From NCBI GenBank assembly GCA_037200045.1, contig JBBCHM010000002.1, forward strand, positions 733,241-797,240: a stretch of 64,000 nt of DNA. Direction: 5' to 3'. The notes under the pieces are model-generated. The model worked only from the letters and a program-made list of their open reading frames with translations, was not told the DNA's origin and did no database searches. A program made the translations under genes and the position numbers. How positions within the stretch are numbered: the first letter of the stretch is position 1; each line of letters begins with the position of its first letter. This DNA comes from Rhizomicrobium sp. GTDB taxonomy: Bacteria; Pseudomonadota; Alphaproteobacteria; Micropepsales; Micropepsaceae. Below are positions 48,352-63,902 of this stretch, in pieces.

Positions 48352-48426
<75 letters not shown>

Positions 48427-48645
48427 GTTTTATTCAATATATTCAACTATTTAATCGGCAGTCCACATCTGGCGCATAATCCGACGCAGATTTTATGCGC
48501 AATTTATCTGCAACTCAAAATGCCCGCAGACCCACTAGGAAGGCGCAGGAGAGGCGTTGTTTCCGGCCCTCCTTGGATAGCTTCGCGCCGCCAACCACGC
48601 GCCAGAGCGCGGGCTTGCGAGTCGGCGACGGCAGCTCGACCGGCG

Positions 48646-49665
48646 TCACGCGGCCGAGCGCGCGCCGACGGCAATCTGACCGATGAAGTAGCCTCCGTGC
48701 GCCGCCGAAAAATACGTGAACTGGTTCATGGTCCGCGCATAGGTCTCGTTCGTCACGAAGACCTGCATGGTGGCCCCGTTGGTATCCACGATCACGCAAT
48801 TGGCTTGGTTGTTGGTGATCACCTGGAGCCCGCGGTTAGACCAAGCTTCATAGGCAAGATGGTCGGAAGATGCATTGCCGAAAAGCGTGAGCTTCGGACG
48901 CAGGACGTTCAGAAAGCCAAAGTCACGATCTGAGTGGCGGCCATGATGAGGTGCGACGAGAAGATCGACGTCTTCGACATCGGCGCGATGATTGGCGAGG
49001 ATGTGTTCCCAGGTATCGTCATGGGAGTCACCGGCGATGATGATCCGGCCCGCCGCCGACTTATACAAAATCACATATGAGCTGTCGTTGTGCTCACCCC
49101 TCTCGTTGGCACTCGCAATCAGCGCCTTCGTCGGCGCGAGAATGTGGAGGCCATCGCCGCCGGTGCCGCTGTCGTCTTCGTTCCAGTACTTGCCGCGGTC
49201 ACCGGCATGAAGGGTGAGGCGCCTGGGCGCGCTCACCAAAGTGCCGTCGCGCAGCGATTTGTAGAAGTCCCAATCATCCTCACGGAACGGTGCGTTATTT
49301 CCGAACGGCTTGTCTTCGCAGGTGTTCTGCGTGTCCCAGAAATTGTAGACCGGGAACGCCTCGAAGACATCCTTGATGCCGTCCATGTGATCCATGTCGG
49401 GATGCGTCAGGAGGAACCTGAAGATGCTCTTGATCCCGCGACGCCGCATGTACTCGATCGGGTTCACAGGAAATTCCTTCTGCCCAAAATTCCCTTTCGG
49501 AGACTGGCGCGCGGCCTCCGCCCTCAGAAACTTGGTCAGCTCATTGTCTTGCGCGGAATAATCGTGCCGCGCGTTGCAGACGTCGATCACGGTTACATGA
49601 CCGTTCGGATGCTCAATGATGGAGCAGTCGCCCTGCTTGACGTTCAAGAAGTGAAAAATACCCAT
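48646..49665 (-). CDS. Metallo-beta-lactamase-fold protein (ComEC/Rec2-type domain), island cargo
   Basis: A 339-residue cytoplasmic protein. It starts MGIFHFLNVKQGDCSIIEHP, typical of soluble ComEC-like MBL domains; the metal motif is FRFLLTHPDMDHMDGI (HxxxDH, about residues 87-93), further ligands are likely in IIIAGDSHDDTW (about 218-228) and VAPHHGRHSDRDF (about 247-259). A good ribosome site (AAGGA) precedes ATG 49665. It is the last gene before attL and follows a membrane protein by 18 bp. MBL proteins of this type occur in several anti-phage and conflict systems; that role here is inference from context only. Confidence 0.85.
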   Translation of the reverse strand: MGIFHFLNVKQGDCSIIEHPNGHVTVIDVCNARHDYSAQDNELTKFLRAEAARQSPKGNFGQKEFPVNPIEYMRRRGIKSIFRFLLTHPDMDHMDGIKDVFEAFPVYNFWDTQNTCEDKPFGNNAPFREDDWDFYKSLRDGTLVSAPRRLTLHAGDRGKYWNEDDSGTGGDGLHILAPTKALIASANERGEHNDSSYVILYKSAAGRIIIAGDSHDDTWEHILANHRADVEDVDLLVAPHHGRHSDRDFGFLNVLRPKLTLFGNASSDHLAYEAWSNRGLQVITNNQANCVIVDTNGATMQVFVTNETYARTMNQFTYFSAAHGGYFIGQIAVGARSAA

Positions 49666-49683
49666 TACCCAAATCCTTTCTGG

Positions 49684-50346
49684 TTAGTTTCCCGCGCCTT
49701 TCTGCGCGAGGACGGTGGTTACAAATCGATGGCCGCTGACATTTGCGGCTCTTGTGGCGAGCGCCCATTGGAGGACGAGGACGATGACGTAGATGGCGGC
49801 CGTCTTGATCGGCATGGTCACGGCGGCGGCGGCGCCCAGGATCACGACCAGGATCAGCGAGATGAAGGAATAGTCGCGGGCGAACAGGAATTTGCGATGC
49901 ACATGCTCGATGACCGGATGGCTGGCGATCGTCCGATACAGGCGATACCAGAGAGCGTTCTGCTCCTTCCGTTCGGTGGGCAGCGGACCGAACGCGGTCG
50001 ATAGCGCGGCCATGTCGACGCGCGGATCACGAGGGCCATACCGTGAAAAGGCTTCGGAGCCCGGATACGGGAACCGCCAACGCAGAAAGACCATCCGGGC
50101 CTTCAATTCGTCGCCGATCTGCGCGTTGAGAATTCCGGTCAATACGACGCCCACGCCAGCCGGCAATGCCGACATCCAGCCCGTCGCCAGGGCGATCCAG
50201 TCTCCGACCGTGATCGCCATCGCGTGTTCCACCAAATAGAAGGCCGCCGCGTTCAGTGCGAGCACGGCGAACAAGCTCTTGGCATTGTTTTCGTTGAGCG
50301 TTTGACTGCCGACTGCTGCTTCTGCCACGGGATGCCCCAAAAACAA
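49684..50346 (-). CDS. Membrane protein with 2+2 TM segments, island cargo
   Basis: A protein of up to 220 residues, no family recognised. Two hydrophobic segments near the N-terminus (SLFAVLALNAAAFYLVEHAM, about 24-43, and a following one to about 70 containing GVGVVLTGILNA) are followed by a soluble Arg/Glu-rich part (about 80-160) and two C-terminal segments (FISLILVVILGAAAAVTM and AAIYVIVLVLQWALA). The start is uncertain: TTG 50346 or GTG 50328. It is the first gene after a consensus-like promoter and is probably co-transcribed with the MBL protein. Confidence 0.75.
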   Translation of the reverse strand: MFLGHPVAEAAVGSQTLNENNAKSLFAVLALNAAAFYLVEHAMAITVGDWIALATGWMSALPAGVGVVLTGILNAQIGDELKARMVFLRWRFPYPGSEAFSRYGPRDPRVDMAALSTAFGPLPTERKEQNALWYRLYRTIASHPVIEHVHRKFLFARDYSFISLILVVILGAAAAVTMPIKTAAIYVIVLVLQWALATRAANVSGHRFVTTVLAQKGAGN

Positions 50347-50399
50347 TAAGGCGGAACACCAGAATCAATGCCCTGGTGGCCCGCCCCCTTCTGCGGCAC

Positions 50400-50428
50400 A
50401 CTATGTGGGGTCGAAGTCTAGATGTCAA
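50400..50428 (-). promoter_or_regulatory. Sigma70-like promoter for the island cargo pair
   Basis: On the minus strand a consensus -35 TTGACA (50428-50423) is followed after 17 bp by CATAGT (50405-50400). It lies 54 bp before the membrane protein frame, downstream of the two hairpins that close the packaging transcript. Confidence 0.6.
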
Positions 50429-50533
50429 TACGTCGCGGCGACTCGGCTTTACAGATTGTATTGGAAGGAATTCGAGTCGATGGCGGTCGCTGCGCTCAAC
50501 CCAAGGCCCGCGCCGCCCCAGCATATAAGAGTT

Positions 50534-50614
50534 GGGGCCGGACGTTGGATGCCGCCCGGCCCCTCTGCGTCGGCGCGCTGCTAGGAAAGGTCCCACCTTC
50601 GCGGGCTAGCAGCG
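50534..50614 (-). terminator. Two hairpins ending the island's packaging transcript
   Basis: CGCTGCTAG/CTAGCAGCG (50576-50614, 9-bp stem, 21-base loop) and GGGGCCGG/CCGGCCCC (50534-50563, 8-bp stem) follow the stop at 50633. Neither has a U-tract, but both are strong and separate the packaging genes from the cargo promoter. Confidence 0.5.
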
Positions 50615-50632
50615 TTGGAACGCGCCGCAGGT

Positions 50633-51322
50633 TCAGGCCGCCAGGTCGTCCCGGGCAGCCGCGATCAGTTCATCGGCCTTCTTGAAATCGACGGTATCGG
50701 CAACCGACTGAAGCATCGTGTCGCGGAATTGTTGTGCGTAGCCTTGTTGTTCGCGAAGGCCTTTCAGTGCCGCCGCCTCGTTCGGTGCGTGGGCTTCGAT
50801 CAAGGTATCGCGAACAAACTGATGCATCTCCGGGACGACGCCGGAGAGGTACGCCTGACAACTGGCGACAGCCAGAAGAGTGTCCTCGTCGCCCGCTTTG
50901 CGCGCTGCCTCCAACAGGTTCAGCCGATCACCGTTCGGCAGGGACTTGAAGTGCGCTCTGATTTCCTGATGGCGCATGCAAGTCGGGTATTGCGGGTTCG
51001 GCGGATTGTAGGCCTTCGCGGTAATCGCCTCGAGATGCGCCGCCCGTTGCATGGCGGCCTCATTCGCCACATCGAGCGCTTCAACGAGAGGCAGGATCGC
51101 GCGGGCAGCCTTCGAACTCTTAACAAGCCGAGCGCCCTGCGTGCTCGTTTCATCGGCCGTATATCGCGCGTGATGCTGGCGAAACGTCTGGTAGCCGCCC
51201 AGGAGCGTCTTGATCGCGCTAGAGAGGCCGTCATCGGCATTCGGGAAGCGAGCGGCCCATTGTTCGAACATTTCATGGCGCTGCGGGTGTTGGCCGGAGC
51301 GACCGGGGAATGAGGCAGGCAT
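50633..51322 (-). CDS. Unknown helical protein of the island
   Basis: A 229-residue protein of no recognised family. It is mostly helical, with Ala/Glu/Gln/Arg-rich stretches (AARAILPLVEALDVANEAAM, RLNLLEAARKAGDEDTLLAV) and a Pro/Tyr/Cys segment NPPNPQYPTCMRHQEI in the middle. A strong ribosome site (AGGAG) precedes ATG 51322. It follows the terminase nuclease gene by 13 bp, so it belongs to the packaging operon and might be a portal-adaptor, scaffold or phage-interfering protein; the sequence does not decide. Confidence 0.7.
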   Translation of the reverse strand: MPASFPGRSGQHPQRHEMFEQWAARFPNADDGLSSAIKTLLGGYQTFRQHHARYTADETSTQGARLVKSSKAARAILPLVEALDVANEAAMQRAAHLEAITAKAYNPPNPQYPTCMRHQEIRAHFKSLPNGDRLNLLEAARKAGDEDTLLAVASCQAYLSGVVPEMHQFVRDTLIEAHAPNEAAALKGLREQQGYAQQFRDTMLQSVADTVDFKKADELIAAARDDLAA

Positions 51323-51335
51323 GTCAATTCTCCTT

Positions 51336-52016
51336 TCAGGTTAGCGAGTATTTTCCGACAGAGGCGGTTTGGTATTTTGGTTTACCGACGAAGACCCAGA
51401 GCGCGAGCGCAACTGCCAAAACCAGATCGTCGTGCTTGCCGACTCGCGCGTCATACGAGTAGCGACCGGCGGCGCTGACGCTGCGGCGGAAGTTCTTGAG
51501 TTCGTCGGCCATCGCGCCCGCTTCAGCAAGATCAGCCGCAAACCGTAGCTGGCCGGAATGTAGCCGGGCGTCGAGAGCGCTAATCAGCGTTTGCTTTGGC
51601 ACATGCCAATTCCGCACGCCGCGCGCCGACTGACGATCACCGCCCGTGATCGTGACGCGGATCGGCTTGTGCCCGCCATGATCCCAAAGATCGGCAACGG
51701 GACGACCGACGCCGGTGGCGTCAATCACGAACTCGCAGCCCTCGCTGAGTGGCGGGCGACCAAGGAGCCTCGCCATCTCCTGAACCTGATCGACGTAACT
51801 CAAGCCAAGCGGGAGCCGCCGCAGGTAGCGAACATCAAATGTCTCGCCGGCTGCCGTTTCTTGGCCGCTATAATAGACGTGCGAGGTAACAACACGCTCC
51901 ATGACAGCTATCGCTGTTGGATCGGCGCTCTGACCAAGATCTGCTGCCAGAACAAAACTGTGTTCCGAGACAGCCTTGAGACCGCGTTTGATTTGTCGGC
52001 TGGTTGTCATTGCCAT
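51336..52016 (-). CDS. Terminase large subunit, nuclease part (separate gene)
   Basis: A 226-residue RNase H-fold nuclease domain of a phage large terminase. The three acidic clusters are present: SFVLAADLGQSADPTAIAVM near residue 20, CEFVIDATGVGRPVADLWD near 93, and GKHDDLVLAVALAL near 194. ATG 52016 overlaps the end of the ATPase gene by 10 bp; a second ATG at 52010 overlaps it as ATGA. In most phages both domains form one protein, so this is a split terminase with translational coupling. Confidence 0.88.
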   Translation of the reverse strand: MAMTTSRQIKRGLKAVSEHSFVLAADLGQSADPTAIAVMERVVTSHVYYSGQETAAGETFDVRYLRRLPLGLSYVDQVQEMARLLGRPPLSEGCEFVIDATGVGRPVADLWDHGGHKPIRVTITGGDRQSARGVRNWHVPKQTLISALDARLHSGQLRFAADLAEAGAMADELKNFRRSVSAAGRYSYDARVGKHDDLVLAVALALWVFVGKPKYQTASVGKYSLT

Positions 52017-52756
52017 AGCGAGACAACCTCCGAACTGAAGGCGACCCGAATGATTTCACTCGGGAAGACCTGCTCGTCATTTTCCACGAACTCGCAAAGG
52101 TACTCCTGCCGATAAAGCGCCTCGCCGAGCGCCTTTCGTTCATCGGCCAGGAACGCAGGGCTGATGCGGCTGCACTGGTTGGCCGTGATCCGCGTGCGCT
52201 CCCAAGTGGTGCCGCCGTTCTCCCACCAATCGTGGAAGAAGCCGCGACGGCCTTGCGGCGTACTGAGGGCGATAATGTCGCCATCGCTGACCGCCAGCAT
52301 CGGGCGGCACGCGGCAACAATCTCGTCGGGAATGCGCGAAGCCTCATCGAGGATCAGGAGCGCGACATTTGCGAAGCCGCGCACAGTCGTCTCGCTGGAC
52401 GGCAAGCTGATTATCCGGGAGCCATTCTCCAACTCAAGACGATGGGCGGACTCTCCGACGATCCTTGGCAAACCCCAGACCCTCGAATGCAGGGATAGGC
52501 ATGTTCGGACTGTCTCCGCCGATTGCCGTTGGCTGGGGCTGATAACCAGCACGGGTGAGTTGGGCTGGGCGACCGCCTTCTCGATTGCCTTGAGGCCCGC
52601 GGTCGTACTCTTGCCGCCCTGCCGGTGGACGTTCCAAAGCTGGCGCTTCGATTGCGAACGGATCGCCTGCACCTGCCAGTTATCGGGATGCATGATGCCC
52701 GCGTCCTGAAACCAGTAGGCGCTATCCAAGGACCGGGCGAGATCGCGGGCTAGCAT
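52007..52756 (-). CDS. Terminase large subunit, ATPase part (separate gene)
   Basis: A 249-residue motor ATPase domain of the Terminase_6 type. The Walker A form is WNVHRQGGKSTTAGL near residue 41, Walker B VALLILDEASRIPDE near 130, and the coupling motif DGDIIALSTPQGRRGFF near 157. It ends after VFPSEIIRVAFSSEVVSLWQ, exactly where the nuclease domain would begin in a fused protein. The ATG at 52756 overlaps the small gene before it by 7 bp. Confidence 0.9.
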   Translation of the reverse strand: MLARDLARSLDSAYWFQDAGIMHPDNWQVQAIRSQSKRQLWNVHRQGGKSTTAGLKAIEKAVAQPNSPVLVISPSQRQSAETVRTCLSLHSRVWGLPRIVGESAHRLELENGSRIISLPSSETTVRGFANVALLILDEASRIPDEIVAACRPMLAVSDGDIIALSTPQGRRGFFHDWWENGGTTWERTRITANQCSRISPAFLADERKALGEALYRQEYLCEFVENDEQVFPSEIIRVAFSSEVVSLWQ

Positions 52757-52920
52757 AGGCCCGGCCGTTTCGATTTGACTTTGCCAGTGGCAAAATCGAG
52801 CGTGTCATTCGTCTTCGGATACTCAGGCGGTGACGGATACTTTTTCGCTTCCTCGCTGATGATCGTGGTGACCGCCTGCATCTGCAGGAAGTTCGCTATG
52901 TGGTCTGCTGCCTTGGTCAT
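52750..52920 (-). CDS. Small 56-residue protein in the packaging operon
   Basis: A short frame starting MTKAADHIANFLQMQAVTTI and continuing SEEAKKYPSPPEYPKTNDTL to KRPGLC. Its ATG overlaps the stop of the small-terminase-like gene (ATGA) and its stop overlaps the terminase ATPase start by 7 bp. This perfect fit in the operon and the natural composition support a real gene. No family recognised. Confidence 0.7.
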   Translation of the reverse strand: MTKAADHIANFLQMQAVTTIISEEAKKYPSPPEYPKTNDTLDFATGKVKSKRPGLC

Positions 52921-53537
52921 GCGGCTAGCCCTCGTTCCTCGTTGGTCCTGATTGTCTCTGCGGCCTTGCTCTCGATCCGATGCAGGACCTTTGCGACGGC
53001 CTGCCGGGCGTCCGGGAATGGCGCTAAGGCCTTGACCAGTTCCACCCGCATCTCGACGTAGGCGGGCAGGACCAAGACGTTGTTGATGGTCGTGCTGCCG
53101 GTGGAGAGGTCGCCAAGCAGTTCGCCGGTCACTTCGAGATTGCGATGAAGCTGCCCCGCGACCCGCGCCACCATCGCGCTATCGCCGCACTCCTCTGCAA
53201 CATCGAGGCTGGAGAACAACCGATTGCGCAGGGCTACTAGGTTCATCAAGAGCGACTGGCTCTCCGTCTCGCGGAGCCGGTCCAGGTCGACGCCTTCGAT
53301 GCTTGGGCCTGCGATCAATCTGGCGCGGAGCTGCGGCGGCAGATGGTTCTTGGCGTGGCGATAGAGTGAGTCGATACCAAGCTTGTATCTGCGCTTCAGG
53401 GCGCGCACCGAGACGCCGCGCGCTAACGCCAGATCAATCGACGCATGTTCCCGGTGATTGCAGATCGAGCATTGCGTTGGGGTCCGCCGCTTCATTCTTG
53501 GCCGCAAATCCGCATGGCATCGAAACTTGATGCGCAT
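52917..53537 (-). CDS. Small-terminase-like DNA-binding protein
   Basis: A 206-residue protein (if ATG 53537 is used). Residues near the start hold a CSICNH motif and an HTH-like segment LARGVSVRALKRRYKLGIDS, then a long helical part (DLDRLRETESQSLLMNLVAL). The plan, an N-terminal HTH with a helical oligomerisation part, and the place directly upstream of the large terminase genes fit a terminase small subunit. Other starts (TTG 53567, ATG 53495) are possible. There is no clear ribosome site. Confidence 0.7.
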   Translation of the reverse strand: MRIKFRCHADLRPRMKRRTPTQCSICNHREHASIDLALARGVSVRALKRRYKLGIDSLYRHAKNHLPPQLRARLIAGPSIEGVDLDRLRETESQSLLMNLVALRNRLFSSLDVAEECGDSAMVARVAGQLHRNLEVTGELLGDLSTGSTTINNVLVLPAYVEMRVELVKALAPFPDARQAVAKVLHRIESKAAETIRTNEERGLAA

Positions 53538-53782
53538 ATTTCGCGGAAAGGCTAAGGCGACATGCAAAGGTAAAGCAATGATATCAAGCGTTGGCGCGTC
53601 ATTGGCCCCTTATAATTGATAAGTTGGCGATGTATTGGAGAGTGATTGGATCGTCTCAGAATGGCCCGGATCGCGGCATTGCGCATGCAACTGATTTGGC
53701 GCGGCGCAAAGATGGTCGAAGATCGCCGCGCTCATTCATTCGGCACGATCTGATTTTCGTCATACCGAACGCTTCGCTTGAA

Positions 53783-54388
53783 CTATTCCCCTCGCTCATT
53801 CTCGATGACCTTGGCGATGTAGCGCTCAGGATACCGAATTGTCTCTCGCGCGGCGCACGTCAAGATTGTGTTGATCTGGTCGGCGCACCTATCAGCGTCG
53901 ATGAACGCCATAAGGCGGGTAGCCATCTTCCAAGCTCGCTCGGCACCCATTCTCTCAATCAGTAGACTATACCCTCCCCTTCCTTCGGACAGCGCCACCA
54001 GTTCGTATTCGACGCGCACTGCCTTCGCATAGTACGCCCGACTTTCATCCCTGCCGATCATTCTGATTTCATCCAGATCAAGCACGTCGTGCGGATCAGG
54101 ATTGTCTACCTGCCACTTCGACAACTCTTCGATGCGGCGGTGCCTGGATATGCAGCCGGCGATGTAGCGGTGTCTTCTGCGCTTGCTGTCGAGGCGCGCG
54201 CACTTGCGCAGGATGTTCCTTGCCCATTCGTCGAAGTCCTCTGGGTGAGCCTCTTTCATTTCTGCGAGCAGGCGCGGCCCTTCCTCTCCAAGTACATCGA
54301 ATGCCCGCTGTCTCAGGGGCGATCTGTGAAGATTGCGCAGGAACCGATTTCTTCCTTCCCCGGATTGATCGAACCTAACCATCTTCAT
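53783..54388 (-). CDS. Unknown island protein
   Basis: A 201-residue protein if ATG 54388 is used (GAGGA lies just upstream); the frame is open to 54475. It is rich in Arg/Glu and helical, with FLRNLHRSPLRQRAFDVLGE, CARLDSKRRRHRYIAGCISR and RYPERYIAKVIENERGE. Four Cys are scattered. No family recognised. It lies between the HTH genes and the packaging genes, with about 215 bp to the next gene. Confidence 0.6.
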   Translation of the reverse strand: MKMVRFDQSGEGRNRFLRNLHRSPLRQRAFDVLGEEGPRLLAEMKEAHPEDFDEWARNILRKCARLDSKRRRHRYIAGCISRHRRIEELSKWQVDNPDPHDVLDLDEIRMIGRDESRAYYAKAVRVEYELVALSEGRGGYSLLIERMGAERAWKMATRLMAFIDADRCADQINTILTCAARETIRYPERYIAKVIENERGE

Positions 54389-54490
54389 TTCCTCATGGCC
54401 CTGCCAACCGAAGGTAAATCGCGCGTAGCGCAATTTCTCTTTCAGAACGGCTTCGATAAGAACGGATTGACTCAAGAAGGATTAGCACCT

Positions 54491-54545
54491 GATTTTTAGG
54501 GGGGAGCATCGCGGATATTTAGGGGACAGCATCGCCGATTTTTCC
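54491..54545. repeat. Two tandem 23-24 bp repeats (possible iterons)
   Basis: GATTTTTAGGGGGGAGCATC (54491 on) and GATATTTAGGGGACAGCATC (54514 on) are two copies of one unit with the common core TTTAGGGG-N2-3-AGCATCGC, and a third GATTTTT follows at 54538. They lie at the 3' end of a HTH gene of replication-initiator size. They may be iterons or regulator sites. Confidence 0.45.
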
Positions 54546-54883
54546 TAGTTGCTTTCTCCAGCCCGCAGAATGATCCGATACGTGTTCGACCCTGTGAATT
54601 GATTGCCGCGCTTCAGCTTTCGTAGATGCCCTCGTTCAATCAACTGCGCCACACTTGATCGGATCGTGTCATGCGCAAGCTCAGTTCGCAGGTGCAGGCT
54701 CTCCTGCGACGGCCAGATGATCACCTTGCCGGTGCGGCGATATTCTTCCGCTGACTCTGCCATCGTCATGTAATCCGCCATGACGTATCCGATCTTGAAG
54801 GCCGCAGGCCGCAATCCGTTGTCGGCACAAACTTGGTCCCGCCAGATTGCCTTCACGGTGCGCAGAGGCATTCGCGCGGTCAT
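54545..54883 (-). CDS. Helix-turn-helix protein (possible replication or regulatory protein)
   Basis: A 112-residue protein with a winged-helix-like core: GKVIIWPSQESLHLRTELAH, TIRSSVAQLIERGHLRKLKR and the end GSNTYRIILRAGESN. Such short winged helices occur in plasmid and phage replication initiators. The ATG overlaps the stop of the upstream gene (ATGA). Direct repeats lie just after its stop. Confidence 0.65.
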   Translation of the reverse strand: MTARMPLRTVKAIWRDQVCADNGLRPAAFKIGYVMADYMTMAESAEEYRRTGKVIIWPSQESLHLRTELAHDTIRSSVAQLIERGHLRKLKRGNQFTGSNTYRIILRAGESN

Positions 54884-55077
54884 TGGGGCAATCCTTTGAT
54901 GATCGGCTCGAAGGCATCGGTGCCCTCGGGGCCTGCGTTTGGAATGATGCGCAGGTGTCCACGCGCGATGAGTTCCAAGACCCCACGCTCTGCCTCTGCT
55001 TCACTGATCCCACTGTCGCGCGCGATCTTGCGCGCGAGCCAGCGAGACTGCGGACGCAGTTCGACTCCCGATGGCAT
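54880..55077 (-). CDS. Small putative HTH protein of the island
   Basis: A 65-residue protein: QSRWLARKIARDSGISEAEA, RGVLELIARGHLRIIPNAGP and the end FEPIIKGLPQ. The pattern of short helices followed by ARGHLRI resembles a winged helix and the C-terminal part of the next gene. Coupled to it by ATGA; 9 bp after the AlpA-like gene. Confidence 0.6.
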   Translation of the reverse strand: MPSGVELRPQSRWLARKIARDSGISEAEAERGVLELIARGHLRIIPNAGPEGTDAFEPIIKGLPQ

Positions 55078-55086
55078 CAGCCGCCC

Positions 55087-55380
55087 CTAGCGACGTTTTG
55101 ACTTGGGGTTCTTTTGATCCTGCCGGGTCTTCAGCCAAGTGAGGACCGCTTCGGGATCAAACCAGTTGCGCGCGCCGATGCGGATAAACGGCATGCCATC
55201 TGGCAGGCCGATCATCATTGACAGGCGGTAGGGACCGCATTGCAGGATTTTGCAAATGGCCTTGCTGTTCACCAACCGCCCATCGAACAGCTCCATTGGC
55301 TGATCCTTGACGCGAACGGGCGGCACGTTGCGCGCGGCCTTGTCTTTACGGTTTGCTACTTGAACTTTCTGTGCATCCAC
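55087..55380 (-). CDS. AlpA/excisionase-like DNA-binding protein
   Basis: A 97-residue protein whose C-terminal 60 residues fit the MerR-like excisionase fold: LVNSKAICKILQCGPYRLSM, GMPFIRIGARNWFDPEAVLT, then a basic tail NPKSKRR. The DNA-reading wing F-I-R-I-G-x-R-N-W-F is clear. Placed between the integrase and the HTH genes, it is likely the recombination directionality factor or a regulator. Confidence 0.75.
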   Translation of the reverse strand: MDAQKVQVANRKDKAARNVPPVRVKDQPMELFDGRLVNSKAICKILQCGPYRLSMMIGLPDGMPFIRIGARNWFDPEAVLTWLKTRQDQKNPKSKRR

Positions 55381-55536
55381 TGACGTCTCCTAAGCTTCAT
55401 GCCTAAAAGACGTACCGACGGCATCGAGGTTTTCGGCTGTTGGAGGCCGAATGCGGCGCGTTTGGCATGGAAAGTAGAGGAAATCCGCCAAATAAATATT
55501 TTTGGCGAAATCTCTGAAATCGCAGAAAGCCCCGAT

Positions 55537-56838
55537 TTAGCTGCGTTTCAGACCGCGCGCTTTGAATTGAACGATTTTGGCGCTTGGACCGCCTGCCATG
55601 ACTGCGCCCAGACGCTCTACAGCATCTCTCTGCGCGTCGTCGAAGAGATGGGCGTAGCGCGCTGTCGTCGTGACCTGGGTATGGCCCAGTAGCTGTCCGA
55701 TCAAAGGTAGGCTTGCGCCGCTGGATGCCAAAACGCTGGCCGCCGTGTGCCTCAGATCATGGATGCGGGCGGCATTCTTTCCGGTTCGGGGAATGCCAGC
55801 CTTCTTGCAGAGAGCGGCCCATGGCTTCTTCAGGTCGATTACGTGGCCGCTCTTGCCATCCTTCGCCGGGAAGACGAAGCCTTCCACTCTGCGCCGCCAT
55901 TCTTCCAGTGCGGGTCGATCCTCCGGCGCGGCCTTACCAACTTCGACCTTCAGGCGTTTCAGATCGGCATCAGCTAGCGCCCGTCGTTTCGAAAGCAATG
56001 CGCGCGCCGGTGCTGCCAACGGAACGCGGTGTTCGCGCTTTTGTTTGGTGGCGTGACTCGGCTTGGTCCAGTTGCCCTCGGCCAGATCAACCTGGTCCCA
56101 AGTTGCCGAACGGGTTTCCCCGCGCCGGGCGCCGGTCAAGAGCAGCAGGCGGAACAGGTCAGCAATGTTCTGGTCGGGATGCCCGTTGAGGGCCTTCGTC
56201 AGCGATATGATTTCCACCTTCGTTAGGTAGCGGGTTCGCGCCTCTACCGGATTGCGCTTCACGCCCTTGGCCGGGTTCTTCTCGATCCACTCGGCATCAA
56301 TGGCGAAGTTGAAAAGCTTGCTGCATAGCGCGAGGCAAAAGTTTGCCGAGGTCGGGGCGTCGCGATCCTTGATCGCGCGGTGAAGGCCCTCCACATCGGC
56401 TCGCTTGATATCTACGACTTTGCGCTTCCCAAACCGAGGAAGGATGTCGTTCTCCATCATGCGGGAATAGTCACTGCGCGTCGAAGCCCGAAGCTTGGGA
56501 AGATGCTCTTCCTTGAACCGCTCGCACAGGTCCGCCACCGTAGGCGCTTCCCTAGCGTCCTCTGCTTCTCGCGCCGGGTCGGCCCCGCGGTGCTTGATCG
56601 CGTCCTTTAGTTCAGCGGCTTTGGCCCGCGCGCCATTGGTGGTGTACTCCGGGAACTTTCCAATGGTGTAGATGCGCCGCCGCCCATTGGCGGTATAGTC
56701 CAGAACGAATGCGCGCGTTCCTGACGGCAGGACCCGCACGCCCAAGCCCCGGACCTTGTCGTCACGGAGAACACTCATGCCGGATTTTGGGGGTAGAAGC
56801 GCTCGGACGATCTGATCGGTCAGCATTCTCTTAGCCAT
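55537..56838 (-). CDS. Tyrosine-type site-specific integrase (P4 type)
   Basis: A 433-residue recombinase. The N-terminal arm-binding domain of the DUF4102 type (MSVLRDDKVRGLGVRVLPSG) is followed by a SAM-like core-binding domain (about 105-190) and the catalytic domain with R in LLLLTGARRGETRSATWD, H-x-x-R in RIHDLRHTAASVLAS, GH in LIGQLLGHTQV, and the nucleophile Tyr in TTTARYAHLF. A good ribosome site (AGGAG) precedes ATG 56838. It lies about 175 bp from attR, as usual for tRNA-targeting islands. Confidence 0.96.
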   Translation of the reverse strand: MAKRMLTDQIVRALLPPKSGMSVLRDDKVRGLGVRVLPSGTRAFVLDYTANGRRRIYTIGKFPEYTTNGARAKAAELKDAIKHRGADPAREAEDAREAPTVADLCERFKEEHLPKLRASTRSDYSRMMENDILPRFGKRKVVDIKRADVEGLHRAIKDRDAPTSANFCLALCSKLFNFAIDAEWIEKNPAKGVKRNPVEARTRYLTKVEIISLTKALNGHPDQNIADLFRLLLLTGARRGETRSATWDQVDLAEGNWTKPSHATKQKREHRVPLAAPARALLSKRRALADADLKRLKVEVGKAAPEDRPALEEWRRRVEGFVFPAKDGKSGHVIDLKKPWAALCKKAGIPRTGKNAARIHDLRHTAASVLASSGASLPLIGQLLGHTQVTTTARYAHLFDDAQRDAVERLGAVMAGGPSAKIVQFKARGLKRS

Positions 56839-57982: not shown

Positions 57983-58258
57983 GCGCAAACCCGCCTTTCG
58001 CGGTGAATGTCCAGCAATGAGATGGATTTTCAACGCGCCCGGCATGAATGTCTAGTTGAAAGATGGGGATTCCGTGGTAAGAGTGCCGCACGTGCAGGAC
58101 GGAGAGGCGCTTGGATAAGGCGGCGTGGGAGCGGGGCAAGGAACGGCAGCCGGCGTCGCGGCGCGTGGCCTTCGCCGCGCTCGGCATTCCGCTTGCCGCG
58201 GATCGCGGTACGCCGTCCGCCCTCCCCCAACCATCTCTCGCACACACAGGAGAACGAC

Positions 58259-59197
58259 ATGGGCTTGCATGAGCAGATCAGCCGCAAGGGCGACGCGACG
58301 GGGCTGGCCCACCGGCCGGTCGCCGGACGGATCGGCGCCGAGATTCTCGGCGTCAAGCTGGGCGGGGACCTTGCGGCCGAGACCGTCGCCGCCATCCGCC
58401 AGGCGCTTCTGACCCACAAGGTCCTCTTCTTCCGCGAGCAGCAGCATCTCGACGATGCCGGGCAGGAGGCGTTCGGCAAGCTTCTCGGCAATCTCGTGCC
58501 GCATCCGACCGTGCCGAAGATCGAGGGCACGGAGAGCGCGCTGAACATCCTGTCCGACGGCACCTATGCCGCGAACCAGTGGCACACCGACGTGACCTTC
58601 GTGGACGCCTATCCGCTGGCCTCGATCCTGCGCGCGGTGATCCTGCCGTCCAGGGGCGGCGACACGGTGTGGGCGAACACCGCCGCGGCCTATGACCACC
58701 TGCCGGCGCCGCTGCGCGACCTGGCGGACAAGCTCTGGGCGGTGCACAGCAACGCCTATGACTATGCCGCGGCGCGGCCCGACGCCTCCGCCGACCGGCT
58801 GAAGCACCATGCCAACGTGTTCGCCTCGACGGTGTACGAGACCGAACATCCGCTGGTGCGCATCCATCCGGAGACCGGCGAGCGCACGCTGCTGCTCGGC
58901 AATTTCGCGCAGAAGATCGTCGGGCTGAACCGCGAGGATTCCGCGCGGCTGATCGCGATCTTCCAGGATCACATCACGCGGCTGGAGAACACGGTGCGCT
59001 GGCACTGGGCGCCGGGCGACGTGGCGATCTGGGACAACCGCGCGACGCAGCATTACGGCATCGGCGATTTCACCGAGAAGCGCGAACTGCATCGCGTGAC
59101 GATCGACGGCGACGTGCCGCTCGGCGCCGACGGCCGCCACAGCCTGACGCGCCGCAAGGAAGTCCGGCGGCCGGACCTGAAGGTCGCGGCGGAATAG
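58259..59197 (+). CDS. TauD/TfdA family Fe(II)/2-oxoglutarate dioxygenase
   Basis: A 312-residue non-haem iron dioxygenase. The HxD motif is in [17 protein letters not shown] near residue 100, the second His and the 2-oxoglutarate Arg are in [14 protein letters not shown] near 263 and KRELHRVTI near 281. AGGAG lies 6 bp before ATG 58259; the upstream extension of the frame is not similar to anything. It resembles alkylsulfatase/taurine dioxygenases. A 102-residue DUF2285-like gene follows after 20 bp. Confidence 0.94.
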
Positions 59198-59217
59198 CGG
59201 AGGGGCCGGCGGAGGAC

Positions 59218-59526
59218 ATGGGGACCGTTCTGGCTTTTCCCGCGCCGGCGCGCCGCGCGCCGTACCGCCCGCCGCCCGGCATCAGGGCGCGCGGCACCTG
59301 GACCATTTGCCCGTGGAGCGAAGAGGTCTCGGACTACGACAAGCGCCACATTTCCACCTATGCGTGGCTGCTGCACGACGAGTCCGAGGGCGCGACGGAA
59401 GAGGAGCTGGCGCGGACGATCTTCGGGCTCGATCCCGGACATGCCTATGCGCGCGGCGTGGTGCGGTCGCATCTGAGGCGCGCCCATTGGGTCGCCGACA
59501 CGCTGTTCCCGCTGCTGGACTGGTGA
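59218..59526 (+). CDS. Small DUF2285-like protein, paralogue 1
   Basis: A 102-residue protein. After a Pro/Ala/Arg-rich lead (residues 1-28) the conserved part reads WTICPWSEEVSDYDKRHIST, then LLHDESEGATEEELARTIFG, then VRSHLRRAHWVADTLFPLLD. The same pattern (CPWS-x2-V-x2-YD, GA-x3-E-(L/M)A, SHL-x-RAHW) occurs in the gene at 63561-63902. It resembles DUF2285 proteins, which act as DNA-binding regulators in mobile elements, but I cannot confirm this. It follows the TauD-like gene by 20 bp. Confidence 0.72.
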   Translation: MGTVLAFPAPARRAPYRPPPGIRARGTWTICPWSEEVSDYDKRHISTYAWLLHDESEGATEEELARTIFGLDPGHAYARGVVRSHLRRAHWVADTLFPLLDW

Positions 59527-59988
59527 TCAGGCGGCGCGCGGACGCTTGGCCTTGGCGCGCGCCTTGCCGGCCTTCTGCATCGCCAGGGCGCTGGCCAGCG
59601 TGGTGTGGTCGAGGATGTCCGACGCGGCGTCGCGCACCCGCCGCATGCTCTGGCGCACCAGGCAGCCCGCCTCGTCCTTGCAGTCGGCGCAGCGCCGATA
59701 GGCGGTGACGCTGGCGCAGGCGATCGGCGCCAGGGGCCCGTCGATGATCCGCACGATCTGGCCGAGCGTGATCTCGCTCGGCGGCTTGGCGAGCGCGTAG
59801 CCGCCATGCTGGCCGCGAACGGTGCGCACCAACCCGCTGCCGCGCAGCTCCAGGAGGATGAGATCGAGGAATTTCTTGGAGATGGTCTCCTGACGGGCGA
59901 TGTCCCACGCCTGCAGCAGGGCGCCGGGTTCGAGCTTTGCGAGCGCGAACATCGCCTTGAATGCGTATTTTGCCTTGTTGGAAAGCAT
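59527..59988 (-). CDS. Rrf2 family transcriptional regulator
   Basis: A 153-residue winged-helix regulator: MLSNKAKYAFKAMFALAKLE, ETISKKFLDLILLELRGSGL and the wing VRGQHGGYALAKPPSEITLG. A Cys-rich segment ACASVTAYRRCADCKDEAGC near residues 90-109 could hold an iron-sulphur cluster as in IscR/RsrR-type members. The Lys/Arg-rich tail is typical. It converges with the small DUF2285-like gene. Its targets may include the oxygenase cluster. Confidence 0.92.
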   Translation of the reverse strand: MLSNKAKYAFKAMFALAKLEPGALLQAWDIARQETISKKFLDLILLELRGSGLVRTVRGQHGGYALAKPPSEITLGQIVRIIDGPLAPIACASVTAYRRCADCKDEAGCLVRQSMRRVRDAASDILDHTTLASALAMQKAGKARAKAKRPRAA

Positions 59989-60074
59989 GTCAGCCCTTGC
60001 GCGCTATATAGAACGCCCCCGCCCGATCCGCAAGAACGCGCGGCAATGTCTAGCACATCGCTATCCGAATGGCG

Positions 60075-60431
60075 CTAGCCGGCCGATTCGGCCCGCAGCA
60101 CGTCGAGGCGGAGCGGCAGTTGGGCGCCGAGCCACAGGCTGTGGGTCGCGTGGTCCTCGTAATCGTCGCCGGTCAGCGGATGGACCATGATGCTCAGCCC
60201 GTCGCGGTGCAGCATCAGAAAGGGCACGAGCCCGGCGAACGCTTCGGGCGCGAAGGCGACCTGGTACATCGCCGCGTCGTGCGGGCCGACCGGAACGTCG
60301 TGCCAGCGCCCGAGCACGACCGTGAAATCGCGGGCGATGGCGTCGCGCAGCCGCGCCGCCGCCGGCTTGGTCGCGGGCGTGTAGTAGACATGGGCGTGAA
60401 AGCCTTCGATCGGCGTCTGGGCGGAACCCAT
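60075..60431 (-). CDS. DOPA 4,5-dioxygenase family protein
   Basis: A 118-residue protein of the small DOPA-dioxygenase family. It starts GFHAHVYYTPATKPAAARL (His-x-His near the N-terminus) and has VPVGPHDAAMYQVAFAP, LHRDGLSIMVHPLTGDD and DHATHSLWLGAQLPLRLD; these His residues are the probable metal ligands. Bacterial members cleave catechols by extradiol chemistry or are of unknown use. ATG 60431 chosen; it lies 2 bp after the stop of the upstream small gene. Confidence 0.88.
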   Translation of the reverse strand: MGSAQTPIEGFHAHVYYTPATKPAAARLRDAIARDFTVVLGRWHDVPVGPHDAAMYQVAFAPEAFAGLVPFLMLHRDGLSIMVHPLTGDDYEDHATHSLWLGAQLPLRLDVLRAESAG

Positions 60432-60433
60432 CG

Positions 60434-60694
60434 TCACTTGCGTCCCTTGGAAAGCGGGCCGCGAAGGACCCACGCCGCGATTGTCGCCGCCTTGCGGGTG
60501 AATGCAAGGCCGAGCCCGGACCAGGGGCGCGGCGGGCGGGCGGCGCGCCGGGCCTCGCAATCGCAGGCCGCCTCGATCTCGATCCCCGCGAGAAAAAGCG
60601 GCGAGCTTTTCAATTGCCAAGCGGCCACCATATGGCATTCCCCCGCACAGCCGGACAGGTCGCCACCCCATTCGCCATCGACGTTTCGCGGCAT
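60434..60694 (-). CDS. Small Cys-containing hypothetical protein
   Basis: An 86-residue frame starting MPRNVDGEWGGDLSGCAGEC with further Cys in IEAACDCEARRAA and a basic tail RGPLSKGRK. No family recognised. It is in the same direction as the DOPA-dioxygenase-like gene, whose start follows 2 bp later, and begins divergently from the alpha/beta hydrolase; this arrangement supports, but does not prove, a real gene. Confidence 0.5.
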   Translation of the reverse strand: MPRNVDGEWGGDLSGCAGECHMVAAWQLKSSPLFLAGIEIEAACDCEARRAARPPRPWSGLGLAFTRKAATIAAWVLRGPLSKGRK

Positions 60695-60758
60695 GTCGTC
60701 ATCCTCGTCGCGGGACGGCCGGGAGAGTTCACAGGTCCGCCGGCCGTGGCACTGGACT

Positions 60759-60779
60759 TACTATATTAACTTGATAGAC
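60759..60779. promoter_or_regulatory. 21-bp palindromic element, copy 1 (before the hydrolase)
   Basis: Read on the minus strand it is GTCTAT-N8-TATAGTA, 29 bp before the hydrolase start and between two divergent genes. The same element occurs before the CmcJ-like gene at 62677-62697. CTAT and ATAG are inverted, so a dimeric regulator may bind. Confidence 0.5.
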
Positions 60780-60808
60780 TAAAGGCGAATTCAATCGGAT
60801 CGCAAGCC

Positions 60809-61834
60809 ATGACGATCGGCGTTGGGAGCAGGCTGGACGCCGAATCGTACCCGCCGCGCGCCGAGCTCCTGCGCCTCATCCCGGGCGTGGAGCCGGCAAC
60901 GCCGGCGCCGGCGGCGCTCCGGGTGATCGAGCAACTCGCGCATAACGGCCCAAGGCCCTCCGCCGATATCGAGGAGGTCCGGCGGCGCTATGAGGAAAGC
61001 CGGCGGCCGCTGCTCGCGCCGCTGGAAGATGTCGACCGGGTCTTCCAGGTCTTTCCGCGGATCGGGGACGGGCCTTCCCTGCGCATCATCCGGCCGAGGG
61101 GCGGCGCCGAGCGCGCGGCGTCTCCGGCGATCGTCTACCTGCATGGCGGCGGCTGGACGGTCGGCACGTTCGAAATCTATGAGCCGCTGTGCCGGCAGAT
61201 CGCCAACGCCACGGACAGCGTCGTCATCTGGGTCCGCTACCGGCTGGCGCCCGAGCATCCCTTCCCGGCGGCGTTCGAGGACACCCGCAAGGCGCTGCGC
61301 TGGGTGCACGACAATCATCGCTGGCTGGGGGTTGATCCCACGCGCATCGGCATCGCCGGCGACAGCTCGGGCGGCAATCTGGCGGCGGCCGTGTGCCTCG
61401 CCGAACGCGACGCGCGGTCGGAGGTGCAGCCGCGCTTCCAGATTCTACTCTATCCGTGCCTCGACATGCGCGCCTCGATGCCGTCGCACAAGGCGTTCGC
61501 CGAGGGCTATCTGCTGACGTCCAAGCTCTATCGCTGGTATCGCGAGAATTACGTGCGCGATTTCGTCAAGCCGCAGCATTGGCGGCTGTCGCCGCTGTTC
61601 GCCTACGACCTGAGCGGCTTGCCGCCGGCGGTGGTGCTCTATGCGGGGTTCGATCCGTTGCGCGACGAGGCCGCCGCCTATGCCGGACGGCTGGGCTGCG
61701 CCGGCGTCGCGGTGGAGCAGCTCTACTTCCCCGACATGATCCACGGCTTCATGACCATGGGCGGCGCCATTCCCGCCGCCGGCGTCGCGGTGCGCCGCGT
61801 GGCGGACGCCCTGGCCCGCCTGCCGGTCGGCTGA
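60809..61834 (+). CDS. Alpha/beta hydrolase (hormone-sensitive lipase family esterase)
   Basis: A 341-residue esterase. The oxyanion-hole motif is VYLHGGGWTVGTFE near residue 111, the nucleophile elbow GIAGDSSGGNLAAA near 188, the acid Asp in YAGFDPLRDEAAAY near 280, and the catalytic His in PDMIHGFMTM near 312. The long N-terminal cap (about 80 residues) is normal for this group. It is divergent from the Cys-containing small gene. Probable role: hydrolysis of an ester or lactone in the surrounding oxidative pathway. Confidence 0.94.
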   Translation: MTIGVGSRLDAESYPPRAELLRLIPGVEPATPAPAALRVIEQLAHNGPRPSADIEEVRRRYEESRRPLLAPLEDVDRVFQVFPRIGDGPSLRIIRPRGGAERAASPAIVYLHGGGWTVGTFEIYEPLCRQIANATDSVVIWVRYRLAPEHPFPAAFEDTRKALRWVHDNHRWLGVDPTRIGIAGDSSGGNLAAAVCLAERDARSEVQPRFQILLYPCLDMRASMPSHKAFAEGYLLTSKLYRWYRENYVRDFVKPQHWRLSPLFAYDLSGLPPAVVLYAGFDPLRDEAAAYAGRLGCAGVAVEQLYFPDMIHGFMTMGGAIPAAGVAVRRVADALARLPVG

Positions 61835-61841
61835 CGCCTTC

Positions 61842-62573
61842 TCAGAACGGCTCGGCCCAGGGGCGCAGATCGAGCTCCAGCGTCCAGGCGCTGCGGTGCT
61901 GGTGATGCAGCGTCCAATAGGCCTCGGCGATGGCGTCGATCTTGAGCAGCCCGTCGGGCCCGCGCTGGTCCTTGAGCTGCGGAACGCGGGACAGCAGGCG
62001 GTCGCCTTCGATGCCGCCGTCGATGACGACATGGCCGACATGGATGTTCTTGGGACCGTATTCGCGCGCGATGCTTTGCGCCGTCGCCCGGAGCGCCGCC
62101 TTGGCGGCGGCGAAGGGCGCGAAATTCGCCTTGCCGCGCAGGCTCCCCGAAGCGCCGGTGAAGATCAGCGTGCCGCCGCCCTGTTCCAGGAACACCGGAA
62201 TCGCGGCCTGCGCGACGTGAAAGCCACCCAGCGCGTGCTCGCGCCAATGCTGCTCGAACTGCTCGGGCGCAACGTTCAGGAACGGCGCCGGATTGTTGCT
62301 GCCGGCATTGTGCACCACGACCCGCAGCGGCCCGAGCTGTTCGGCGGCGGCGACGAAACGCGCCGCATCGCCCGCCTTCGCCGCGTCGCCGACGATGGCG
62401 GCGACCTTGGTCCCGGATTCCTCCAGTTCCTTTTCCGTTTGCGCCAGCTTTTCGCGGTTCCGTCCGGCGATGGCGACGGAAAACCCGCCGGCCGCGAACC
62501 GGCGGGCGATGGCGGCACCGAGGCCGTGCGAGGCGCCGACGCCGACGACGAGGATGCTGGGTTGATCGGTCAT
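61842..62573 (-). CDS. SDR family protein with Phe in place of the catalytic Tyr
   Basis: A 243-residue short-chain dehydrogenase-like protein. The cofactor motif is VVGVGASHGLGAAIARRFAA near residues 9-28, NAG occurs in VVHNAGSNNPAPF, and Ser in TGASGSLRGKANF near 140. The catalytic motif Y-x3-K reads F-x3-K (FAPFAAAKAAL near 151-155), so the usual Tyr is absent. It may lack normal activity, use another base or serve as a binding protein. It is convergent with the hydrolase and divergent from the CmcJ-like gene. Confidence 0.9.
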   Translation of the reverse strand: MTDQPSILVVGVGASHGLGAAIARRFAAGGFSVAIAGRNREKLAQTEKELEESGTKVAAIVGDAAKAGDAARFVAAAEQLGPLRVVVHNAGSNNPAPFLNVAPEQFEQHWREHALGGFHVAQAAIPVFLEQGGGTLIFTGASGSLRGKANFAPFAAAKAALRATAQSIAREYGPKNIHVGHVVIDGGIEGDRLLSRVPQLKDQRGPDGLLKIDAIAEAYWTLHHQHRSAWTLELDLRPWAEPF

Positions 62574-62676
62574 GGGGAGCCGTCCGGTTCGAATGTCGCC
62601 GCCATCCTAGCGCCGGACGCGGCCGACAGCTCCCCCGTTTGCGCATGGGCCCCGCGCGCTTTGCTTACTTGTCTTT

Positions 62677-62697
62677 GTCTATTGATGAACTATAGTA
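62677..62697. promoter_or_regulatory. 21-bp palindromic element, copy 2 (before the CmcJ-like gene)
   Basis: GTCTAT-N8-TATAGTA on the plus strand, 21 bp before the ATG at 62719, followed by AGGAGG (a strong ribosome site). Identical ends and spacing to the copy at 60759-60779, with different centre bases. Confidence 0.5.
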
Positions 62698-62718
62698 TTA
62701 ACACGACAGGAGGACGGC

Positions 62719-63564
62719 ATGAACATTCATCAGCTCGACTCGCTCGGCGGCGTCCGCGCCACGCTCAATTACCTGCTTCGCACCGACAAGAAGCCCTACA
62801 ACTACACCTTCGATCCGCCGCCCGGCGTGCCGGCGCGCTACGGCGAGGTGAACGCGATCGACAACGTCCTGATCCGCGACGCGCGGCCGGCGGCGGACGC
62901 GCTCTCCCTCGACGAACAGGGCTTCGCGCTGCGCCGCCACGAGAGCGCGGTCGAGGACTTCTACGACGAGGACCAGATCCGCGACCGCTATTATCCGGAG
63001 ATCGACGCGTTCCTGAAGCGCGAGACCGGCGGCGAGAAGGTCATTATCTTCGATCACACGATCCGCTCGCTGCCCAAATTCGAGGCCGGCATCGCCGGCA
63101 TGCGCGAGCCGGTGCGGCGGGTCCACAACGACTACACCGAGCTGTCGGGGCGCCGGCGCGTCACCGACCATCTGGACGGCCCGGAGGCGGCGGCGCGGCT
63201 GCGCAACCGCTTCATCGAGGTCAATGTCTGGCGGCCGATCCGCGGCCCGCTGGAGGACACGCCGCTCGCCGTGCTCGACGCGCGGACGGTGGCGCCCGAC
63301 GATCTCATCGCGAGCGATCTGATCTACAAGGACAAGGTCGGCGAGACCTATGCGGTGCAGTTCAATCCGAAGCACCGCTGGTATTATTTCCCGCGCATGC
63401 AGCGCGACGAGGTCATCCTCATCAAGGGCTTCGATTCCGATACGGCGATCCCGTCCCGCTTCACGCCGCATACCGGCTTCGACGATCCCACGGCGCCGCC
63501 GAACGCGCTGCCGCGCGAGAGCATCGAGGTGCGCGCCCTGGTGTTCTTCCCGCCCGCCGCATGA
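62719..63564 (+). CDS. CmcJ/NvfI-type Fe(II)/2-oxoglutarate oxygenase
   Basis: A 281-residue oxygenase of the family that includes CmcJ (cephamycin methoxylation partner) and fungal NvfI. The iron-binding motif is in EPVRRVHNDYTELSGRR near residues 131-147, the second His and Arg in AVQFNPKHRWYYFPRMQRDE near 212-231, and FTPHTGFDDPTAPPNALPRE near 249-268 is a hallmark of the family. AGGAGG precedes the ATG. It overlaps by 4 bp the next gene, a DUF2285-like small protein. Confidence 0.93.
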   Translation: MNIHQLDSLGGVRATLNYLLRTDKKPYNYTFDPPPGVPARYGEVNAIDNVLIRDARPAADALSLDEQGFALRRHESAVEDFYDEDQIRDRYYPEIDAFLKRETGGEKVIIFDHTIRSLPKFEAGIAGMREPVRRVHNDYTELSGRRRVTDHLDGPEAAARLRNRFIEVNVWRPIRGPLEDTPLAVLDARTVAPDDLIASDLIYKDKVGETYAVQFNPKHRWYYFPRMQRDEVILIKGFDSDTAIPSRFTPHTGFDDPTAPPNALPRESIEVRALVFFPPAA

Positions 63565-63902
63565 GCGGTGCCGTGGAGCTCGGCGAGTGTCAGGCCTATT
63601 GCGACGCCGGCCAGCCGGATCGGGCACCCCTGCCCGCTCCACGGCCGGCGGACCATGCGATCCGGCTGTGGAACGCCTGTCCGTGGAGCGACGCCGTCAC
63701 CGCCTATGATCTGCGGAACGTCCATCTCTACAACGAGCTGCTGAACGCCGAAGCGCAAGGCGCCTCGCTGCGCGAGATGGCCAGCGCCCATTTCCGCATC
63801 GGCGTCGATGCGCATCCGGGTTGGGCGCTCCATGTCGTCAGCACGCATCTGGAACGCGCGCACTGGATGCAGGACAGCGAATTCGCCTATCTGGACCGGT
63901 GA
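63561..63902 (+). CDS. Small DUF2285-like protein, paralogue 2
   Basis: A 113-residue protein coupled to the CmcJ-like oxygenase (ATGA). The conserved core reads WNACPWSDAVTAYDLRNVHL, then LLNAEAQGASLREMASAHFR, then VSTHLERAHWMQDSEFAYLD, closely parallel to paralogue 1 at 59218-59526. The N-terminal 35 residues differ. Each paralogue follows a different iron-dependent oxygenase, which suggests a common role in expression or assembly of these enzymes. Confidence 0.72.
   Translation: MSGAVELGECQAYCDAGQPDRAPLPAPRPADHAIRLWNACPWSDAVTAYDLRNVHLYNELLNAEAQGASLREMASAHFRIGVDAHPGWALHVVSTHLERAHWMQDSEFAYLDR

Follow-up and report, generated by a model that had tools for sequence, protein, structure and literature searches.

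Why should two oxygenases that are unrelated in sequence each be followed by a member of one family of very small proteins? The question is raised by a 64,000-nucleotide stretch of Rhizomicrobium sp. DNA (contig JBBCHM010000002.1; hereafter the window, from genome G000, which is 96.4% complete), where a TauD-family gene precedes the gene for a small protein, smallA, and a CmcJ-family gene precedes that for its paralogue, smallB. We identify both, with near certainty, as stand-alone DUF2285 proteins resembling QseM, and give a probability of about one half to the reading that such proteins have been recruited into an organosulfur-scavenging regulon, where they would act by binding a regulator. 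The two pairs are:

58259..59197, plus strand: TauD-family gene, Fe/2-oxoglutarate dioxygenase of predicted AtsK type (alkylsulfatase-like; PF02668, 199 bits)
59218..59526, plus strand: smallA, stand-alone DUF2285/QseM-like, 102 amino acids, starting 20 bp past the TauD stop codon
62719..63564, plus strand: CmcJ/NvfI-family oxygenase (NF041278, 324.8 bits)
63561..63902, plus strand: smallB, stand-alone DUF2285/QseM-like, 113 amino acids, with a 4-bp ATGA overlap with the CmcJ gene

An earlier note, made from the letters alone, had described this arrangement accurately: the 20-bp spacing and the 4-bp overlap are as it gave them, smallA and smallB are paralogous (42% identity across 92 residues, E 3e-21) with the shared core CPWSxxVxxYD ... 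GA ... E ... HLxRAHW, and the two window oxygenases, said to be unrelated, gave no meaningful alignment with each other. Both small open reading frames (ORFs) read as coding by their coding scores. The ratio of nonsynonymous to synonymous substitution rates (dN/dS, by NG86) between orthologous small genes was about 0.3-0.37, compared with 0.15 for TauD, 0.13 for the Rrf2-family regulator gene next to smallA and 0.33 for a neighbouring hydrolase, so that constraint on them is weaker than on TauD or Rrf2 and close to the hydrolase level. Both oxygenase-small pairs recur in genome G067; of the two, G066, a single contig, has the TauD pair. As G000 holds eight TauD-family and four CmcJ-family genes and only two good small-family copies, the probability that chance placed each copy immediately after one of these 12 genes is ~1e-5, assuming 4000-4500 genes.

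Identity of the small proteins

Scanning smallA and smallB against Pfam and NCBIfam returned nothing above cut-off; PF10074 gave a sub-threshold hit on smallB (14 bits, E 0.078, against a gathering cut-off of 26.4) and no match on smallA. The identification was supplied by searches against solved structures. SmallB alone matched QseM (7UQT) in a single-sequence phmmer search (E 4.2e-10), and a 12-sequence profile had QseM as its one match in the PDB (E 7.2e-24). The AlphaFold model of smallA (mean predicted local distance difference test score, pLDDT, 75, with the first 25 residues disordered and most core blocks at 84-94) places helices at 39-56, 61-67 and 76-95, in the order H1-H2-extended turn-H3. 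When this model was submitted to Foldseek, QseM 7UQT ranked first (E 7.9e-4, probability 1.0, template-modelling scores 0.56/0.66, root-mean-square deviation 5.3 over 81 columns), followed by a weak match to RovC 6XZ5, the other DUF2285 structure. Only QseM-type proteins annotated DUF2285 were found in a plasmid search, the best at 46% identity, and a related-locus search with the family alignment returned only a copy in the metagenome-assembled genome BS750m-G3, evidently the same contig as C1 of genome G031. Homology and predicted fold make it almost certain that smallA and smallB are QseM-like stand-alone DUF2285 (extended-turn helix-turn-helix, HTH) proteins. Of the functions that the earlier note had offered for them, this favours the first, that of DUF2285-like regulators.

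QseM itself, from the symbiosis island ICEMlSymR7A, an integrative and conjugative element (ICE), consists of a single extended-turn HTH domain of the DUF2285 type; it is a monomer and an unlikely DNA binder (PMC10359603). Its partner is the activator FseA, which it binds through the DUF6499 half of FseA; antiactivation requires R28, D31, R68 and W71, the fold is held by Y18, D19, Y26, L29, L30, H65 and L66, and a second target, TraR, is bound through an uncharacterised surface, whereas the DUF2285 domain of FseA binds DNA and needs a basic surface to do so (PMC10359603). The small proteins resemble QseM in being small stand-alone ORFs of similar length that carry a lone DUF2285 domain, in their predicted helix order, in the PWS-YD-HL-RA-W core and in a negative net charge. 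With FseA and RovC, activators that combine DUF6499 and DUF2285, they share the DUF2285 fold, but at 102 and 113 residues they are far shorter, have no DUF6499 half (with PF20109 undetected in G000), show neither a basic net charge nor a basic DNA-binding face, and score below cut-off with PF10074.

A genus clade set apart from conjugative elements

Among the 96 genomes of the order searched (one family), 30 had small-family matches. Both window copies and 11 others lay on one side of a branch supported by a Shimodaira-Hasegawa-like approximate likelihood-ratio test (SH-aLRT) value of 96, in a tree of few columns whose inner order is poorly resolved. We treated these 13 copies, from seven genomes of the genus, as a clade, and compared them with the 42 other copies (genus and family set).

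The two sets differed sharply in all three respects compared, by Fisher tests that ignore relatedness. DUF6499 was encoded within 3 kb of 34 of the 42 other copies, an arrangement that fits qseM-fseA on conjugative elements, and of none of the 13 clade copies (p 1e-7). A Cys at QseM position 9 was present in 11 of 13 clade members and in none of the rest (p 7e-10), while R28 and D31 were both kept in only two of 13, versus 33 of 42 (p 7e-5); smallA has W28 and H31, and smallB E28 and N31. The residues that hold the QseM fold are kept, and the C-terminal contact residues R68 and W71 are retained in all 13. The mean net charge of the clade core, used as a proxy for the surface, is -2.2, like that of QseM, with smallA and smallB at -3 and -4. 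PF20109 (DUF6499) was undetected in G000, G066 and G023 in a direct search that did detect it in 26 of the 69 genomes of the genus. A clade profile run on 387 genomes of the class reached 133-144 bits in this genus alone, in part because its training members were among them, and no more than 85.5 elsewhere.

The small genes differ from qseM in that they do not lie beside qseC, fseA or DUF6499 and sit in catabolic (organosulfur) operons instead of a transfer module, and their products mostly lack the R28/D31 pair and the GY motif, have the new Cys and usually end in a C-terminal Trp. Functional identity with QseM is not claimed for these homologues, because the target (DUF6499/FseA) and two contact residues failed the comparison. 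The replacement of R28 and D31, together with the new Cys, suggests a new binding partner.

Neighbours, sulfur genes and a shared promoter palindrome

Eleven of the 13 clade copies are in catabolic loci; the remaining two are in G049 and G045 (L163 and L164), one beside an AraC-type regulator gene and one beside a CBS-domain gene. A clade copy lies directly beside TauD in G000, G067, G066 and G023, closely spaced in each, and directly after CmcJ in G000 and G067, with the 4-bp overlap in both. Others adjoin a sulfatase gene (G066), follow a pirin gene (G031 C13), are convergent with an Rrf2 gene (G031 C1), or follow the flavin monooxygenase gene of a meta-cleavage operon beside a Trb conjugation module (G031 C8, L038). 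A further G066 copy, at C1:119806 (L037), has lost core residues and lies beside an alcohol dehydrogenase gene, 2.7 kb from a TauD-family gene; its upstream DNA resembles the region upstream of the window TauD gene, and it is possibly a TauD-small operon minus TauD. The CmcJ orthologue of G066 has no small gene, and the smallA orthologue of G031 has no detectable TauD, a search for a remnant having given only a five-residue C-terminal resemblance that we did not count. It follows that neither partner needs the other, and the TauD-small pairing is conserved though the partners are separable.

The earlier note had proposed that the pairing with oxygenases is itself selected, which holds only in part. 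The clade alone has an Fe/2-oxoglutarate oxygenase gene directly adjoining the small gene on the same strand, at six of its 11 catabolic-locus copies, representing roughly three independent pairings; in the wider family, however, the partner is DUF6499/FseA, and the other clade copies adjoin a sulfatase gene, a pirin gene, only Rrf2, or a meta-cleavage operon. A common organosulfur regulon accounts for most placements of the small genes better than does the class of the enzyme.

These neighbourhoods bear directly on whether each small protein serves its oxygenase, or organosulfur enzymes in general, as an accessory subunit or maturation factor. Translational coupling to CmcJ and tight spacing behind TauD are what such a role would predict, the range of direct neighbours, from two unrelated Fe/2-oxoglutarate families to a sulfatase and a pirin, would suit a general factor, and the QseM fold is known to act through protein binding. 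Yet a CmcJ without a small gene and a smallA orthologue without TauD speak against a stable subunit, for which we found no support, a single small fold would need to fit enzymes of the AtsK-like, NvfI-like, sulfatase and flavin kinds, and the nearest homologue is a regulator. We regard this role as rather unlikely and, since the partners each occur without the other, dropped the oxygenase subunit as first choice. The iron chaperone, also suggested by the earlier note, was dropped as well, neither sequence nor structure pointing to it.

Could the small genes instead have no selected role, being passive leftovers of conjugative elements that stayed next to cargo genes? The G031 C8 copy, between the Trb module and the meta-cleavage operon, the faster evolution of small genes than of TauD or Rrf2, and the degenerate copy L037 are compatible with this, but a dN/dS of about 0.35 with core residues kept, the new Cys in most clade members and an operonic placement conserved between species make it quite improbable. 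Genes for a BphC-type extradiol dioxygenase, a hydrolase and a flavin monooxygenase lie next to QseM-family genes both at L038 and at 625-636 kb of G067 (L042). The position of the meta-cleavage (aromatic or steroid degradation) genes beside the Trb module in G031 suggests that they are conjugative-element cargo, and such cargo is a possible route for QseM relatives into catabolic operons.

The sulfur setting comes from the partner enzymes and the genes around them. The TauD-family protein has AtsK (1oih) as its top PDB match at 390.9 bits, compared with ~170-175 for the taurine dioxygenases 1gqw and 3pvj, and its HTD motif is aligned; by sequence it is an AtsK-like enzyme (alkylsulfatase type), with taurine dioxygenase the more distant relative, and its predicted activity is alkyl sulfate cleavage. 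The type II alkylsulfatases AtsK and Rv3406 are its nearest solved relatives but have no known small DUF2285 partner in the literature consulted on them. The CmcJ protein matches NvfI (7de2/7emz) at E ~1e-37 with the HxD motif aligned, its matches to family model and solved structure spanning ~250 residues; it differs from the NvfI/CmcJ oxygenases in being bacterial and inside a sulfur-regulon locus. Between and upstream of the two pairs lie:

58049..58069, no strand: probable eroded palindrome copy TGTCTAGTTGAAAGATGGGGA, 5' of TauD, score 7.2, weak
59527..59988, minus strand: Rrf2-family regulator (PF02082, 122.5 bits), convergent with smallA, stop codons abutting
60075..60431, minus strand: DOPA 4,5-dioxygenase family protein (PF08883)
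60760..60780, no strand: 21-bp palindromic site ACTATATTAACTTGATAGACT, 5' of the hydrolase gene, matrix score 30.8, best in the 64-kb window
60809..61834, plus strand: alpha/beta hydrolase (PF07859, 236.8 bits), orthologues in G067 and G066
61842..62573, minus strand: short-chain dehydrogenase (SDR; PF00106), orthologues in G067 and G066
62676..62696, no strand: 21-bp palindromic site TGTCTATTGATGAACTATAGT, divergent SDR/CmcJ promoter, score 22.8, second in the window

A syntenic cluster in G067 and G066 has the order TauD-small-Rrf2 (opposite strand)-hydrolase-SDR-CmcJ, followed by a second small gene in G067 only. It is flanked there by genes for a TonB receptor, luciferase-like monooxygenases, an NMT1-type binding protein, a hexapeptide transferase that we read as CysE-like, and a DOPA 4,5-dioxygenase family protein (L096 807-1175, L098 12263-12631); in G000 the matching Ssu/CysE-type genes are elsewhere on the same contig (L165). 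The gene content makes it very probable that the locus is part of an organosulfur-scavenging regulon. Close orthologues of the Rrf2 protein (79-100% identity) were found in only four genomes in a search of the genus. Each of these has a smallA-type gene in the corresponding position, convergent with Rrf2 in all four, namely the three clusters and G031, the latter without TauD. Its position among sulfur-assimilation genes suits a role like that of CymR, the Rrf2-family regulator of cysteine metabolism (PMC5015018), from which it differs in being alphaproteobacterial, in its Cys-rich C-terminal half and in a DNA target that is putative.

The cluster promoters share a 21-bp inverted repeat, approximately ACTCTAT-N7-ATAGAGT. 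When a matrix trained on the G066 and G067 sites only was scanned over the window, the sites at 60760 and 62676 were outstanding, the third-best position scoring 10.4; in 30 shuffled windows the peaks were mostly at or below 13, with one at 21.9. Sites orthologous to that at 62676 exist in G067 and G066, and the eroded site at 58049 resembles the G066 site at the same place (AGTCTAGTTGAAAGATAGAGT), although its score ranks below 14 other window positions. Palindromes also precede other TauD-family genes in G000, G066, G067 and G031, as well as two small genes with differing neighbours, that beside the G066 sulfatase gene and that of G031 C13; the ICE-type loci scanned gave no score above 9. 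A second group of Rrf2 proteins, 57-62% identical to that of the window (G039, G027, G026, G028 and G016), has the palindrome at five of six loci (L137-L140, L142), which is consistent with Rrf2 as its ligand, and we infer that the window Rrf2 protein may bind it.

The small proteins might themselves be the transcription factors, binding DNA such as this palindrome. The DUF2285 domain of FseA is a precedent and the palindrome precedes several small genes, but smallA and smallB have a negative net charge, with neither the basic surface that FseA needs nor a DUF6499 half, their lone-domain relative QseM is an unlikely DNA binder, and the palindrome also occurs at the Rrf2-paralogue loci L137, L138 and L142, where no small gene was seen. 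We consider such DNA binding very unlikely.

Elsewhere in the window, a candidate integrated phage-like island (48352-56838) lies between tRNA-Thr (48352-48426) and an rpiB-like gene. It encodes a tyrosine integrase (55540-56838, minus strand), a match to the N-terminal part of a terminase large subunit (52010-52756, minus strand) and a weak replication/HTH-type match (54548-54883, minus strand), with coding scores below those of the rest of the window. A tandem array at 15384-18465 (period about 237/480 bp, about 13/6.4 copies) encodes MBG_2 repeats, probably of a secreted adhesin-like protein split across several ORFs.

A possible role in feedback, and what it would mean

The explanation that we favour starts from QseM-type proteins whose ancestral role was to restrain FseA, the activator of conjugation, on integrative and conjugative elements; they would have left this role in one alphaproteobacterial genus and been recruited into operons of an organosulfur-scavenging regulon. 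Produced as the last gene of its catabolic operon, the small protein would, like QseM, most likely be neither a DNA binder nor an enzyme subunit, and would bind and damp a transcriptional regulator, giving local feedback on the operon or the regulon. Homology, predicted fold, the clade, the absence of the old target, changed contacts, purifying selection, operonic placement and the promoter palindrome are the computed support, and on balance we judge action as protein-level regulators about as probable as not. By linkage the Rrf2 protein encoded next to smallA comes first among the candidate targets, though as a tentative and rather doubtful one, and a LuxR-type receptor comes second.

Several observations weigh against this explanation. 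The clade comprises only 13 copies, among which the divergent ones in G049 (L163) and G045 (L164) have neither sulfur nor catabolic neighbours. In most clade members R28 and D31, which contact FseA in QseM, are not both kept, and retained regulator binding is in doubt. The TauD-smallA operon itself has only the eroded palindrome, no site was seen at the G031 C8 and C1 copies, and a one-mismatch pattern was not clearly commoner genome-wide than its reversed control, for which reason the palindrome is argued from where it lies in promoters and from its conservation. Finally, two LuxR-type receptors in G000 make TraR-like proteins, the other known target of QseM, a conceivable target here.

If the small proteins still antiactivate a LuxR/TraR-type quorum-sensing receptor, use of sulfur sources would be tied to cell density. 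G066, G067 and G031, like G000, each have two such receptors, and the binding of TraR by QseM (PMC10359603) gives a precedent; the luxR loci, however, are unlinked to the small genes, and G023 has a clade member and no detected receptor, which makes this target highly improbable.

In its fullest form the proposal is one of exaptation, and in that form it is distinctly unlikely: QseM-type antiactivators, freed from conjugation, would have become fixed as last genes of organosulfur operons, the gained Cys tuning their binding to Rrf2 (the sulfur regulator in this reading) or another transcription factor, which would let every operon signal its own activity to the regulon. The papers on QseM consulted here treat lone DUF2285 proteins as controls of horizontal gene transfer; here they are found in metabolic operons, which corrects a likely error, that of taking small ORFs next to Fe/2-oxoglutarate oxygenase genes for enzyme subunits. 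For this alphaproteobacterial genus the palindrome is a candidate operator responding to sulfur limitation, and smallA and smallB are a simple paralogue pair for finding the new target. If the recruitment is real, the clade would illustrate how a domain for antiactivation can be turned to a new target.

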